From: Coleofasciculus sp. S288
Lineage (GTDB): Bacteria > Cyanobacteriota > Cyanobacteriia > Cyanobacteriales > Coleofasciculaceae
Direction of reading: 5' to 3'
Assembly (NCBI GenBank): GCA_020216575.1
Contig: JAIUYC010000005.1
Span: 1 to 14,568, forward strand
DNA: 14,568 nucleotides
In this document: one piece after another, positions 2,406 to 11,481 of the stretch
How the letters are laid out: every line of letters starts with the position of its first letter
Position numbering within the stretch: position 1 is the stretch's first letter
The notes under the pieces: generated by a model
Databases searched by the model: none
Told to the model about the DNA's origin: nothing
The model's input: the letters and a program-made list of their open reading frames with translations, nothing else
Position numbers and translations under genes: made by a program

Positions 2406-2648
2406 TCAAAGTCTCCCGATGAGTTCGTCTGATTCGCGAGCGAGCAATTCATTGACGATCGCCCGATTGTTTTGATAAATTTCCAATCGGATCGTGTTTG
2501 GGTCTGAATATCGGAAAGTTACAACATAGGTAACATCTCGCTCTGGGTCAGTAAATCGATATTGTGGTCGGCTCGTTGTACCCATGACCTTGAAACCTGT
2601 TAGGTTAATCGTACTACCATCTTTCTGGTTTTTAACGTAGAGGATGTA
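2406..2648 (-). pseudogene. C-terminal 80 codons of a small gene split by the tnpB element
   Basis: Read on the minus strand from the element's right tip, the frame is open for 80 codons, beginning YILYVKNQKDGSTINLTGF and ending ESDELIGRL before TGA (2408-2406). There is no start codon near its beginning; the first Met is residue 22. It is rich in alternating beta-type stretches (VTYVVTFRYS, TIRLEIYQNN), so it is probably an extracytoplasmic or cytoplasmic beta domain behind a membrane anchor. Together with the 18 codons at 4047-4100 it forms one uninterrupted frame of 98 codons once 2649-4046 is taken out. I do not recognise the family. As it stands the gene is broken, unless the element excises. 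Confidence 0.8.
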
Positions 2649-2800
2649 TTGACACTCTCCGGTCTAAAGACGCGGAGATTCTTGGTTCAATGACTCGCCG
2701 TTAGACGACAGGATTGCTCCAATCGCCCAAGAGGGCAAATCTCCCCAAGCGTAAGTTCCGGTATGCCCTACCGTACACAGTGCTAATTTCAAGATGTTGA
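2629..2800 (-). ncRNA. Predicted reRNA (omegaRNA) of the first tnpB element
   Basis: Inference from family knowledge. TnpB guide RNAs arise from the 3' end of tnpB through the element's right end and continue into flanking DNA. Here the scaffold would overlap the tnpB 3' end and the hairpin at 2657-2677. The guide would start at 2648 on the minus strand (TACATCCTCTACGTTAAAAA), inside the interrupted gene. The 5' limit is only a guess, since scaffolds are usually 100-150 nt or more. Confidence 0.4.
2657..2677 (-). other. Right-end hairpin (IPR) of element 1
   Basis: On the minus strand: CTCCG, bulged C, GTCT, TT loop, AGAC, CGGAG. It follows GAAT (2681-2678) directly and is followed by AGTGTCAA. 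The tnpB stop codon (2666-2664) lies inside it, so it also belongs to the tnpB 3' end and the predicted guide RNA. Confidence 0.75.
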
Positions 2801-3878
2801 TGGCAGCGTTGATGTCTCTATCTTCAACGAATCCGCAATGTGGACATACATGGGTTCTTGTTGATAGGGACTTTTGAACTTTGCTACCGCATTTCGAGCA
2901 GTTCTGGCTTGTATTGTAGGGAGGTACGGCAACCGTAACCTTTCCGTATTTAAAGCCAAAGTATTCTAGCCATTGACGGAATGTAGACCATCCAGCATCA
3001 CTGATTGATTTAGCAAGATGCCGATTCTTAACAAGCCCTTTCACATTTAAGTCTTCATAGGCTATCAAGTCGTTAGACTGAATCACGGAGTACGCGACTC
3101 GCTTGCAGTACTCTTTTCGCTGCCTACTTACTCTCAGATGCTTCCGGGCATATCGGTTTCTTGCCTTGTGGTAGTTTTTAGACTGCGGATGAGTACCTTT
3201 AATGAACTTCTTGGATTTTTTCCGATTGGCTCGATTGAGTTGCCTCTCCGACTTCCGGTAAAACTGAGGACAGGGTTCTGTGTTGCCTTTGTTGTCGGCA
3301 ATGAAGAACTTTAGCCCTAAGTCTAAACCTATGGCTTGTCCGGTTGGTTCAGTTTCTATTTGTACTTTCACATCAATCGCAAATTGAGCATAGTATTCGT
3401 CAGCCCTGCGGACTAATCTAACTCGCTTAATCTGCTTAATGTCGTAGTAATTAAGATCATAGGTTCCCTTGAGCTTAAGAGTTCCTATGTTTTTCCCATC
3501 CCGAAACGTGATAGCCTTCCTATTTCCAGAAAGCTTCCAACCCGATGTTTTATACTCAACTGAGCGACAGTGTTTTTTGAATTTCGGGTATCCTTTTTTA
3601 CCCTTAATCTTCTTCTTGCAATTGTCGTAAAACCGAGCAATTGCACTCCAAGCTCGTTCTGCTGCAGACTGTCTAGCCATTGAATTAAGTTCATCCGCAA
3701 AGGGAAATTCAGATGCTAGTACGGCGCAATATTTGTTGAGGTCATATCTACCTATGCCCCTGTTATCCATCCAGTAGCGGAGACACTTATTCTGGATGAA
3801 TTGGGAGGTACGAATAGCCTCATCAATCGCTCTGTACTGGGTTTGTTTTCCTTTTACTCGGAACTCGTAAATTATCAT
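2664..3878 (-). CDS. tnpB: TnpB RNA-guided nuclease, element 1
   Basis: The 404-residue TnpB carries all three RuvC acidic residues: D186 in IGLDLGLK, E275 in AYEDLN and D355 in DRDINAA. The four zinc-ribbon cysteines are C327, C330, C345 and C348. The N-terminal half (about 1-175) is the usual helical/WED region (RAWSAIARFYDNCKKK, KGYPKFKK). TnpB proteins are guide-RNA-directed DNA nucleases that favour retention of their element, and are ancestors of Cas12. All key residues are intact, so it is probably active. The start is the first ATG after an in-frame stop; a GGAGG lies somewhat far upstream (about 16 nt). No TnpA is encoded beside it. It differs strongly from the TnpB at 10144-11424. 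Confidence 0.93.
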   Translation of the reverse strand: MIIYEFRVKGKQTQYRAIDEAIRTSQFIQNKCLRYWMDNRGIGRYDLNKYCAVLASEFPFADELNSMARQSAAERAWSAIARFYDNCKKKIKGKKGYPKFKKHCRSVEYKTSGWKLSGNRKAITFRDGKNIGTLKLKGTYDLNYYDIKQIKRVRLVRRADEYYAQFAIDVKVQIETEPTGQAIGLDLGLKFFIADNKGNTEPCPQFYRKSERQLNRANRKKSKKFIKGTHPQSKNYHKARNRYARKHLRVSRQRKEYCKRVAYSVIQSNDLIAYEDLNVKGLVKNRHLAKSISDAGWSTFRQWLEYFGFKYGKVTVAVPPYNTSQNCSKCGSKVQKSLSTRTHVCPHCGFVEDRDINAAINILKLALCTVGHTGTYAWGDLPSWAIGAILSSNGESLNQESPRL

Positions 3879-3955
3879 GGCTCGACCCTATCCACCTCCA
3901 TTATTATGTACTATATGCAGACATAAAGTAAACGGCGTTAACAAAACTTAGTCTC

Positions 3956-3973
3956 GGTGGACTGAAGTCCACC
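3956..3973. repeat. Second palindrome inside the left end of element 1
   Basis: GGTGGACT, GA, AGTCCACC: an 8-bp perfect stem with a 2-base loop, between the left-end hairpin and the tnpB start. The ACTGAAGT/ACTAAAGT cores of this and the 4007-4027 hairpin are similar. It may be a duplicated end motif. Confidence 0.65.
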
Positions 3974-4006
3974 TGCCCTTACCCTTCGGGAAGGCTTCGC
4001 CTACAT

Positions 4007-4027
4007 CCCTGGACTAAAGTCACAGGG
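4007..4027 (-). other. Left-end hairpin (IPL) of element 1
   Basis: On the minus strand: CCCTG, bulged T, GACT, TT loop, AGTC, CAGGG. It is preceded by GAAAA and lies 19 bases from the inferred tip. The bulge sits in the same place as in the right-end hairpin. A mid-stem unpaired T is what TnpA of IS608 recognises. Confidence 0.65.
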
Positions 4028-4046
4028 TTTTCAGGTATGCTCCTTA

Positions 4047-4100
4047 TAAAGAAAGCGATAAAGTGCAAACAATTACTAAGGTGATCGATCTAAGTTTCAT
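4047..4100 (-). pseudogene. N-terminal 18 codons of the small gene split by element 1
   Basis: The frame MKLRSITLVIVCTLSLSL starts at ATG 4100-4098, 12 bases after the stop of the cyclase gene, and runs into the element, where TAA follows at once (4046-4044). Two basic residues followed by a hydrophobic run look like the start of a membrane anchor. Joining to the C-terminal part extends the hydrophobic run to ITLVIVCTLSLSLYILYV before KNQKDG, a complete transmembrane helix. That continuity supports the join. No Shine-Dalgarno is clear, so translational coupling to the cyclase gene is likely. Confidence 0.7.
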
Positions 4101-4112
4101 GCGGATTTGGTA

Positions 4113-5720
4113 TTATTGCAGCTTGGTCTGATAAACTCGGACGGGTCTGTGAATTCCTTTAAACTGGTACTCTCCCATTACCACCAAGCCTTGCTTTTGC
4201 CCAAGCATCTGATAGGTGGCTTCACTCACGACACATTCACCAGGAGGACAAATCGCTTCCATGCGGGAGGCTAGGTTAATCGTTGCGCCTAAGGCAGTAT
4301 AATCTACCCGTTGAGAACTGCCGACATCTCCAACCACAGCCTTCCCACTGTTGACGGCAATCCGTAATTGTAGCGGCTCCCTCAAAACTCGGTTTGTATT
4401 CAGCCTCTCCAGACGGGTTAGCATTCCCCTAGCGGCGACAAAAGCGCGATCGGCATGATCGGGTTGAGGTTCGGGAGCGCCGAAAAATGCCATGATACAA
4501 TCTCCGATATACTTATCCAAAGTCCCACCGACAGCAAAGACTTCTTGCAGCATTTCCTCGAACAACCCATTGAGCAATTCAGCAAGCTGTACTGGACTTA
4601 GCCGTTCCGACAGGGCAGTAAAGCCGACAATATCTGCAAACAGGATGCTGATTTCACCTTCGGCGGGGGGCAGGCGGCCTTCTGCCATGCTGCCTACAGC
4701 AATGAGTTGCTGCACGACGGCGGGAGAGTGATAGCGCTCTAGTCTTTGCCGAATCATGGCTTCGCTTCTGAGTTTCTGTGCTAGAAGCCAACGTTGTACG
4801 CTAGACGCTACGAGGTTTGCCAAAGCCGAAAAAAAGCTGAGGTCTTCTTCTCCTTCTTCACTCCAATGGTCTGAAGAATGGTGGGCATCGGCATAAAGGA
4901 CGCCCACGACCTTATTTTCATCCCAGAGAGGGACAGCCATGGCGCTGCGAATTCCTTTATCTAAAATACTCTTTTGCCCCTGAAAACGCTCATCCATCTG
5001 GGTATCAGCAGTTTGAACCGCCACCTTTTCTTCAAAGACCTTTTGACAGATGGTGCGGCTAATCCAACTGCCATCACCTACTAGATTCTGCTGTTGAGAA
5101 ACGTTTCTAGCGGCGGCATTGAGCAATTCAAGCTTGCCCGAACTGCTAACATCGATCAACAATGCCAAACGGTCAATACTCTTGAGATAACGGAAAACAA
5201 CGTCCTGCACCTTAGAAAAAATTGCTTCTATGGATTCAGCCGCGCTTAGACCCTTAGCTATTTCCACTAGGTCTTTCAGGCGAGCAATGGCTTTTTCCTT
5301 GTTGCCGCTCTCCTCTCCCCGACCATTCGCTTGTATCCATTGCTGTTGCAAGTCTTTGACGTTACGCAGGATAGTCAGTCCGTTAGCTTGAGATTGTAAA
5401 TTGCTCTTATTTGGTTGAGAGGGATCGACTAAAAGAACCCAAAGGCTAATATCCCCTATCCAAATAACGTCGCCGTGATTTACTTTTTGAGGAGAGGATA
5501 TAGAGCTTTCGTTTAATCGCGTTCCGTTTTTGCTACCCATATCTTCAATAGTCCATACCCCGGAAGGCGTTTTCACAAAGCGGGCATGGTATCGAGAAAT
5601 TCCCTCAAAAGGTAAGGTTAAGTCGCATTCTGGCAACCGACCGAGCGTGAATTCATCTCGATTCACCGTCACTGTTCTTTGGGTATTTCCCTGTTGTAGG
5701 CGTAGTTTGAGTTCAGCCAT
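4113..5720 (-). CDS. Adenylate cyclase with FHA and GAF domains
   Basis: Makes cAMP from ATP. Domains in order over 535 residues: FHA (about 1-98), GAF (about 155-312), a short helical link, and a class III cyclase catalytic domain (about 350-533). The FHA phosphothreonine-binding residues are present: G27, R28, S42, R43, H45, N65, G66. In the catalytic domain I see metal-binding D363 (FADIVGFT) and D407 (KYIGD), base-selecting K403 and T475 (DYTALG), and transition-state N482 and R486 (INLASR). A Lys/Thr pair is the adenine-specific combination of cyanobacterial CyaC-type enzymes, so adenylate rather than guanylate cyclase is favoured. There is no membrane segment, so it is soluble. It is divergent from a Ser/Thr kinase gene, and the split small gene followed it closely. 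The GAF ligand is unknown. Confidence 0.93.
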   Translation of the reverse strand: MAELKLRLQQGNTQRTVTVNRDEFTLGRLPECDLTLPFEGISRYHARFVKTPSGVWTIEDMGSKNGTRLNESSISSPQKVNHGDVIWIGDISLWVLLVDPSQPNKSNLQSQANGLTILRNVKDLQQQWIQANGRGEESGNKEKAIARLKDLVEIAKGLSAAESIEAIFSKVQDVVFRYLKSIDRLALLIDVSSSGKLELLNAAARNVSQQQNLVGDGSWISRTICQKVFEEKVAVQTADTQMDERFQGQKSILDKGIRSAMAVPLWDENKVVGVLYADAHHSSDHWSEEGEEDLSFFSALANLVASSVQRWLLAQKLRSEAMIRQRLERYHSPAVVQQLIAVGSMAEGRLPPAEGEISILFADIVGFTALSERLSPVQLAELLNGLFEEMLQEVFAVGGTLDKYIGDCIMAFFGAPEPQPDHADRAFVAARGMLTRLERLNTNRVLREPLQLRIAVNSGKAVVGDVGSSQRVDYTALGATINLASRMEAICPPGECVVSEATYQMLGQKQGLVVMGEYQFKGIHRPVRVYQTKLQ

Positions 5721-10088: not shown

Positions 10089-10270
10089 ACCTATCAGAGA
10101 TATAAACATTGACGTACTCCCCTGAGTGAAGTCGAGGGGATTCTTAAAAAGTTGTTACGAGGCGGGCGAGAAAACACGCCTCTCCACTTTTCTTCCTGTC
10201 TCTAGAACTCTTAACTAGACTGTTGCCAGTCCCCGTCAGACCGTCTCCACAGGCAATTTCTTTAACGTCT
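10089..10270 (-). ncRNA. Predicted reRNA (omegaRNA) of the second tnpB element
   Basis: By analogy with characterised TnpB systems, a scaffold covering the tnpB 3' end and right-end hairpin would continue past TCAA into the flank. The guide would begin at 10108 on the minus strand (TGTTTATATCTCTGATAGGT). The 5' limit is a guess. Confidence 0.4.
10119..10139 (-). other. Right-end hairpin (IPR) of element 2
   Basis: On the minus strand: CCCCT, bulged C, GACT, TC loop, ACTC, AGGGG. The inner stem has one mismatch. It sits between GAAT and AGTACGTCAA and has the same layout as the hairpin at 2657-2677, though the sequences differ. Confidence 0.7.
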
Positions 10271-11424
10271 AGGATGCGTCCCACCCCAGACAGTCCACGA
10301 TTGCGGACAATTTGCGCTGCTGCTACATCGCGATGTGTTGTGTATCCACATTCTGGGCAAGAGTGAACTCTATCTTTTAGTTCTTTCTTACCTGTGTGTG
10401 CATCGCATTGAGGGCAAACTTGAGAAGTATAATTTTTGTCCACCTTACCGAAGTACACACCCCGCTTCCAACACACAAACTTCAAGATGGATAAAAACTG
10501 ACCAAAACCAGCATCTAAAGTATGCTTGCCGAATAGTCCTTTTGCCCATGCACGGAAGTCGATATCTTCAACAAATATCATCCCAGCACCGTCACATAAT
10601 TTGTGAGCTAGCTTGAAGTGCCAGTCTTTCCTTGTATCACTGATGCGCTGGTGCAACCTGGCAATCTTTCTATTGAGTTTGTGACGATTGTTTGACCCTT
10701 TCTTTTTGTGCTTAAGTCTGCGTTGCAGTAATTTCAACTTGCGATGCAGCGAGTTCAAGAATCGAGGTCTATCTATCACATCTCCATCAGATGTTGCCAC
10801 GAATTTGTCTAGTCCTAAGTCAATACCAACTGGATGACCGTCAGGTATTGTATCAGGGACATTGACATCACACTCCAAGGTCAACATCACAAAATATCCA
10901 GATGCTTTACGGACAATCCTTGCTTGTTTGACCATGAAGCCATCTGGAATTTCTCGTGACTTGACATATTCGAGCCACCCCAACTGAGGTAACTTGATTT
11001 TATTCCCCTGCAAGAACTGAGATTTACCCAACTGCGGATAAACAAAAGACCGCATCCGGTATCTGTTCTTAAATCGAGGAAATCCCACACGAGAGCGTCC
11101 CATATCCAAGAAGGCTGTTTCCAGTTTTCTTAAAACCTGTTGCAGCACTTGAGCGTTGACGGTTTTAAGTTCTGGAAATTTCTCCTTGGCTGCGGTCAGT
11201 GTCTTACACTGTTGTGCATAAGTGGGACGAGGTGCATCCACACTCATGATGTACTCAGAGGTAATTGAGCAAGCATTAATCTGACACTTCCGAGAATTCA
11301 ACCAATCCTTACGCTCACGCAAAGCAAAATTCCAGACTTTGCGACACACCGTTAAAGTATGTTCAATTATCTGGATTTGTTCTGCTGTGGGGATTGCTTT
11401 GTACTCGTAAGTCAAACTTAACAT
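10144..11424 (-). CDS. tnpB: TnpB RNA-guided nuclease, element 2
   Basis: The 426-residue TnpB has an intact RuvC triad: D202 in VGIDLGLD, E286 in IFVEDIDF and D366 in HRDVAAA. Its zinc-ribbon cysteines are C337, C340, C356 and C359. The N-terminal part (KVWNFALRERKDWLNSR, GFPRFKNRYRMRSFVYPQ) is the typical helical/WED region. It is only distantly like the TnpB at 2664-3878, so the two elements come from different lineages. I chose ATG 11424 because AGGAGGTGA lies just upstream (about 11434-11441). The longer frame would use a GTG at 11436 that overlaps that ribosome-binding site. The Cys-containing tail after the RuvC-III motif extends about 60 residues. Confidence 0.93.
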   Translation of the reverse strand: MLSLTYEYKAIPTAEQIQIIEHTLTVCRKVWNFALRERKDWLNSRKCQINACSITSEYIMSVDAPRPTYAQQCKTLTAAKEKFPELKTVNAQVLQQVLRKLETAFLDMGRSRVGFPRFKNRYRMRSFVYPQLGKSQFLQGNKIKLPQLGWLEYVKSREIPDGFMVKQARIVRKASGYFVMLTLECDVNVPDTIPDGHPVGIDLGLDKFVATSDGDVIDRPRFLNSLHRKLKLLQRRLKHKKKGSNNRHKLNRKIARLHQRISDTRKDWHFKLAHKLCDGAGMIFVEDIDFRAWAKGLFGKHTLDAGFGQFLSILKFVCWKRGVYFGKVDKNYTSQVCPQCDAHTGKKELKDRVHSCPECGYTTHRDVAAAQIVRNRGLSGVGRILDVKEIACGDGLTGTGNSLVKSSRDRKKSGEACFLARLVTTF

Positions 11425-11481
11425 TTGCTGCGTCACCTCCTACATTCTTTATACACGATTTTGTAGGATATTTCTGGAAAC

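Follow-up and report, generated by a model that had tools for sequence, protein, structure and literature searches.

A tnpB-only IS200/IS605-type insertion in a cyanobacterial gene with 182 bp of the target gene missing between two TTAT sites

The window, by which we mean the whole 14,568-nucleotide stretch of DNA analysed, lies on contig C619 of a 5.57-Mb draft assembly (1069 contigs, 67% complete), and is read as cyanobacterial from the records that supply relatives of the broken gene described here, named Cyanobacteria bacterium UBA8543, Argonema, Coleofasciculus and Microcoleus, among others. The locus consists of a small gene on the minus strand interrupted by an IS200/IS605-type element, with the start of the broken gene 12 bp (4101-4112) past the stop codon of an FHA-GAF-cyclase gene (Table 1). 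Rfam and tRNA scans of the window returned no matches.

Table 1. Coordinates of the broken gene, the inserted element and the neighbouring gene within the window.
Feature	Position	Strand	Basis
Right gene part, still open from Y80 (intact-protein numbering) through the stop codon	2406..2648	minus	alignments to relatives
IS200/IS605-type element, tnpB only, 1397 bp, tips AAGGAG...GTGTCAA	2649..4045	minus	tips from other copies
Right tip TCAA	2649..2652	minus	34/35 right ends
Right guide GAAT (2681-2678) and right-end hairpin (2677-2657)	2657..2681	minus	sequence and fold
tnpB, 404 aa, open throughout, motifs GLDLG, YEDLN, DRDIN and two CxxC	2664..3878	minus	Pfam, NCBIfam, motifs
Left-end hairpin with one bulged base	4007..4027	minus	fold
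Left guide AAAA, pairing with the TTAT target by the IS608 rule	4028..4031	minus	38 left ends
TTAT target, retained on the left side; probably doubles as the TnpB motif	4046..4049	minus	other copies
Left gene part, ATG to TTAT, 55 nt, including the TTAT target; putative secreted-protein start	4046..4100	minus	82% identity to L029/L030
FHA-GAF-cyclase gene	4113-5720	minus	Pfam

The insertion appears to be an ordinary IS200/IS605 element of the IS608-like kind, in the form of a non-autonomous, tnpB-only derivative. When the right ends of 35 copies, that of the window included, were lined up, 34 ended in TCAA with unrelated DNA beyond, the exception being L084 (TAAA), and most of the right-end matches of other copies, among the matches listed, begin at window position 2649 or 2648. 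Left-end matches that reach the tip typically extend through TTAT, with the element in other copies beginning AAG or AA directly past TTAT or TTAC. From the tips and target of these copies the element is taken as 2649-4045 and base 4046 as target. An earlier note on this DNA, made from the sequence alone, had chosen the same right tip, and had set the left tip at 4046, which proves to be the last base of the target. Other copies carry the same hairpins at both ends as the window element, with no inverted repeats in their place.

In IS608 of Helicobacter pylori the target TTAC goes with the left guide AAAG, and the right tip TCAA with the guide GAAT, according to PMC5934647. The window element resembles IS608 in its right tip and right guide, in the four-base left guide at the foot of the hairpin, which pairs with a TTA- target that stays in the left flank, and in the hairpins at both ends and the lack of a target duplication, and differs in having TTAT/AAAA instead of TTAC/AAAG (one base pair exchanged), in carrying no tnpA, and in the 182 bp missing from its target gene. 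Among 38 left ends, anchored on the guide and hairpin with the four bases before the tip then read, target and guide are TTAT/AAAA in 31, TTAC/AAAG in four, TTAC/AAAA in one (L195) and another tetranucleotide with AAAA in two (L160, L172); these copies were gathered by similarity, and are related rather than independent. Target and left guide covary among these natural copies, as seen in L155, L156, L162 and L176 against the other left ends, with L195 as the exception.

The tnpB product matches Pfam OrfB_IS605 and Cas12f1-like_TNB above cut-off and the NCBIfam model guided_TnpB at 263.9 bits (cut-off 100), and carries the acidic motifs and zinc ribbon. The solved ISDra2-type TnpB chains 8bf8 and 8h1j match it with an E-value of 1.6e-38, making it the same kind of TnpB as that of ISDra2 from Deinococcus radiodurans, which likewise inserts 3' of a fixed short target (PMC2806898); the ISDra2 target is however TTGAT (PMC8612924 and PMC2806898) rather than TTAT, and the window copy is tnpB-only. 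Neither the ORF list nor Pfam yielded a tnpA frame within 2649-4045, and a TnpA from another locus presumably mobilised the element. Matches to PF01797 (TnpA) inside elements with the same left-end type are found at G017:C718 and G000:C735, the latter a short frame of 100 aa and one of five PF01797 matches in the genome. A second tnpB of the window (10144-11436, minus strand, 430 aa, GTG start, HTH_OrfB domain) looks unrelated to the first, and the right-end motif of the first element type was not found beside it.

The element looks mosaic on sequence comparison. Over 42 bp its left end shares 95% identity with L126/L127, where tnpB has 52-53% identity to the window gene, and the window tnpB is 88-90% identical to L132/L131, whose upstream DNA is different. 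A search for further copies with this left end ahead of this tnpB start found none in 20 family genomes, nor in 388 class genomes searched at E<=1e-8 with up to two candidates scored per genome.

The view that the element splits a small undescribed gene is borne out by comparison with two intact relatives, L029 and L030, in which both ends of the broken gene are recognisable. The left 55 nt are 82% identical (45/55) to the 5' ends of the two intact genes, and the right 240 nt are 90% (L029) and 82.5% (L030) identical to their 3' parts, which shows the flanks to be pieces of a single gene, correctly ordered and oriented. This order and orientation also speaks against an assembly error, in which two places would have been wrongly joined at the element; whilst the fragmentation and incompleteness of the draft leave room for such a join, elsewhere in the assembly the element finds no better match than 92% over 130 bp, and we regard this as the least probable of the explanations weighed here.

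A search with the 98-aa translation obtained by joining the flanks, in which only proteins of ~54-171 aa were considered, gave 83 database matches. Of these, 81 are 139-170 aa long, and the remaining two are fragments, P0065 (59 aa) from the window itself and P0066 (76 aa); intact relatives are typically ~159 aa. The match P0001, with 90% identity over the matched 82% of the query, has MKLRSIALATVCTLPLSLSLSF at its start, then a middle part, then AYYILYVKNQ. The left piece in the window, MKLRSITLVIVCTLSLSL, corresponds to the beginning of this protein and the right piece to P0001 from Y80, leaving ~61 residues that are present in 13 aligned full-length homologues and absent from the window. 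A 98-codon ancestral gene was considered and rejected, with that length seen in 0/83 matches and the middle part present in those 13 homologues.

The left part reads as the signal-peptide-like start of a longer secreted protein, in place of the membrane protein envisaged before, whose proposed helix spans the deletion. An AlphaFold model of P0001 built with 48 homologues has a mean pLDDT of 86.6 and 11 strands, and the intact protein, which is ~159 aa long and reads as secreted, is predicted to be beta-rich; the loss removes residues 19-79, including four strands of the model. As Pfam gave no match above cut-off for three homologues, NCBIfam gave no match, and a Foldseek comparison of the P0001 model with the PDB gave 675 matches at E<=10 (best 50 examined) and none at E<=1e-3, no function is claimed for the protein.

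In the intact genes of both L029 and L030, 182 bp that are missing in the window lie between the two parts. In both, the first TTAT ends at gene nt 52/55 and a second TTAT at nt 234/237, 182 nt further, and the window pieces stop at these two sites, with the loss running from just past one TTAT (gene nt 55) to just past the other (gene nt 237). With slashes marking the junctions, the window reads CTTTCTTTAT/element/TACATCC, and both L029 and L030 read CTTTAT/CTCTATC at the first site and GCTTAT/TACATCC at the second. Both TTATs stand at aligned places in these two intact relatives only (L010 is the same place as L030), with L013 and L032 having TTCT and GCAT at the place of the second, and L031 and L033 differing in sequence around the first. 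A search of the window's own genome for an intact second site elsewhere, allowing up to three mismatches, matched only the element-bearing copy; a reversed control pattern matched about as often, and distant matches therefore mean little.

That the loss is bounded by TTAT at both ends raises the possibility of slippage between two 4-bp direct repeats, with the element inserting later at the one TTAT that remained. Only four TTATs lie on the gene strand in L029 and in L030, and reinsertion at this one would not be rare once the gene was struck. However, amongst all possible repeat-mediated deletions spanning 30-400 bp and sharing 4 bp of homology or more, counted in these relatives as proxy loci, only 2/491 (L030) and 1/446 (L029) use the TTAT beside the element, and none of the 83 homologues has the shortened length. 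On these sequence counts, a random repeat-mediated deletion is unlikely to be the cause, and we place slippage just below the TnpB-directed repair considered later.

The missing DNA also explains why the insertion had seemed clean. Removal of 2649-4046 does yield the 98-codon open frame that the earlier note quoted, as our recomputation confirms, but this frame is open because the misplacement of the tip by one base together with the loss of 182 bp makes 183, which is divisible by three. Excision at the tips 2649/4045 joins TTTATTACATCC and yields MKLRSITLVIVCTLSLSLLHPLR followed by a stop, the frame ending after 23 residues, so the halves do not rejoin exactly in frame. It had also been held that no base was duplicated or lost; there is indeed no target duplication in the window, whereas the 182 bp seen in L029/L030, and the corresponding residues of the aligned homologues, are gone, and the intact genes mismatch the predicted join. 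The loss of the gene would not be undone by excision, since a frameshifted fragment would remain, and the picture of a clean and reversible knock-out falls with it. Furthermore, the suggestion that an intact orthologue might lie downstream of the same cyclase found no backing, with neither the FHA-GAF cyclase nor a pyruvate kinase matched beside the gene in 13 related loci, several of which have only ~1.5 kb of flank and one of which (L010) repeats L030. The gene neighbours in L029 and L030 seem to differ from those of the window.

We infer that the 182-bp loss was driven by the element, with recombination between two copies of it being the leading explanation, at a probability of a little under one half (about 0.47). 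Recombination between direct copies of an insertion sequence leaves one element with flanks from two sites, and the intervening DNA is lost. Here, copies in the same orientation would have occupied both TTATs, both lying on a single chromosome or, following a short hop, divided between sister chromosomes, and recombination between them would have deleted the DNA in between and left a single element with the left tip of the first copy and the right tip of the second. Each tip would then be the product of an ordinary clean insertion, which would account for both tips being perfect and both endpoints lying just past TTAT, and this reading is ranked first because it needs no new chemistry. It is also favoured by the missing 182 bp being bounded by TTAT in both relatives that have the two sites, and by the mosaic look of the window element, although the mosaic could predate this insertion. 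Compared with two-copy IS deletions in general, the window loses only 182 bp within one gene, and the two-copy state is one we infer rather than observe. Unless hopping is local, it would be a coincidence for a single gene to have received two insertions in the same orientation at a distance of 182 bp; both TTATs are aligned in only two intact relatives, and in a draft of this completeness reads or other alleles could alter the picture.

Insertions elsewhere allow the tip itself to be compared. Twelve other insertions were recovered with both ends by pattern, and the joined flanks of 11 were searched in 20 family genomes, L157 being left out for its right flank of 27 bp. An empty site spanning the junction was found for five of the 11 (L129, L058, L158, L159 and L165), with no loss at the junction in any of the five; support on the right side extends ~60 nt for L058 and L129, the latter with small indels, but in L158, L159 and L165 the relative diverges after only 14, 15 and 11 nt. 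For the other six (L126, L125, L130, L082, L049/L179 and L167) the 20 genomes gave no junction-spanning match. The target is TTAT in some of the empty relatives and altered in G010:C308, G010:C331 and G003:C20. A loss right at the tip, as in the window, is the exception in this small set, and a target-to-target loss of 182 bp at an IS200/IS605-type insertion appears uncommon.

This set bears on a second way in which the element could have caused the loss, an adjacent deletion made by TnpA, which we consider doubtful. The element would have inserted at the first TTAT, and TnpA would perhaps later have cut the right tip (TCAA) while the left guide AAAA was paired with the second TTAT instead of its own, so that the right tip was joined past the second TTAT and a 182-nt circle was released. 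Such a reaction would suit endpoints that both obey the cutting code and a right-tip junction without a shared repeat, and IS608 is described as finding its target by pairing between guide and target tetranucleotide (PMC5934647). Against it stand the five of five empty-site controls without a junction loss, the absence of tnpA from the window copy, and a literature in which, as far as the searched part reaches (most subscription papers lying outside it), no adjacent deletion by an IS200/IS605 element is reported. Cutting by TnpA at a second target is thus less likely than recombination between two copies. Were it to occur, an IS608-like TnpA could trim host genes from target to target whilst re-guiding TnpB, with the window a natural product of this activity, an idea to which we give no great weight.

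The guide of TnpB is relevant to the second site in its own right. If TnpB is expressed, the predicted guide would carry the sequence TACATCCTCTACG...; in L029 this sequence follows TTAT, and the second site there is identical to the 24 nt past the window element. With 1 mismatch in 20 it also follows TTAT at G016:C731 and G003:C444, and in L013 (G011:C118) it is preceded by TTCT. An active TnpB might therefore be able to cut intact alleles. It is improbable that such cutting made the loss. In that event TnpB would have cleaved an empty copy of the second site, and error-prone repair, in which the four bases TTAT of the first site paired with the TTAT next to the element, would have copied the element in and lost 182 bp. 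The open tnpB with its motifs and the 24 identical nucleotides are consistent with this route, as is the cutting by ISDra2 TnpB 15-21 bp from its motif (PMC8612924), but priming by four bases is weak where repair normally uses long homology, and the route presupposes an active TnpB.

A seemingly perfect in-frame rejoining can mislead when host DNA has been lost and a tip is misplaced by one base, and intact relatives must be compared before an insertion is called reversible. The junction of a right tip to the base following a target tetranucleotide offers a search pattern for other IS200/IS605 insertions. If TnpA does make target-to-target losses, gene trimming and the re-guiding of TnpB would occur in one step.

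In two of the empty-site comparisons the G010 relative has extra DNA, ~165 bp (L158) and ~90 bp (L159), from 14-15 nt past the junction. This DNA is repeat-like and looks inserted in G010, with a loss in G016 as the alternative. Set against L207/L208, the extra DNA of L158/L159 starts near the 15-21 bp at which ISDra2 TnpB is described as cutting (PMC8612924), which could reflect chance or insertions in the relative.

Smaller relatives of the element were also observed. Mini-elements of 47 bp occur in L130 (plus strand, 1968-2014; G002:C150) and L179 (plus strand, 1968-2014; G003:C375), in which the right tip follows the left hairpin without a break (TTAT/AAGGAGCATACC...GGGGAGTGTCAA) and no gene is present. 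The G016 loci L158, L159, L165 and L167 hold copies of 266-294 bp that share the ends of the element but contain no gene, and many other G016 left ends are found close to the ends of contigs, a pattern to be expected if the repeat is present in many copies.
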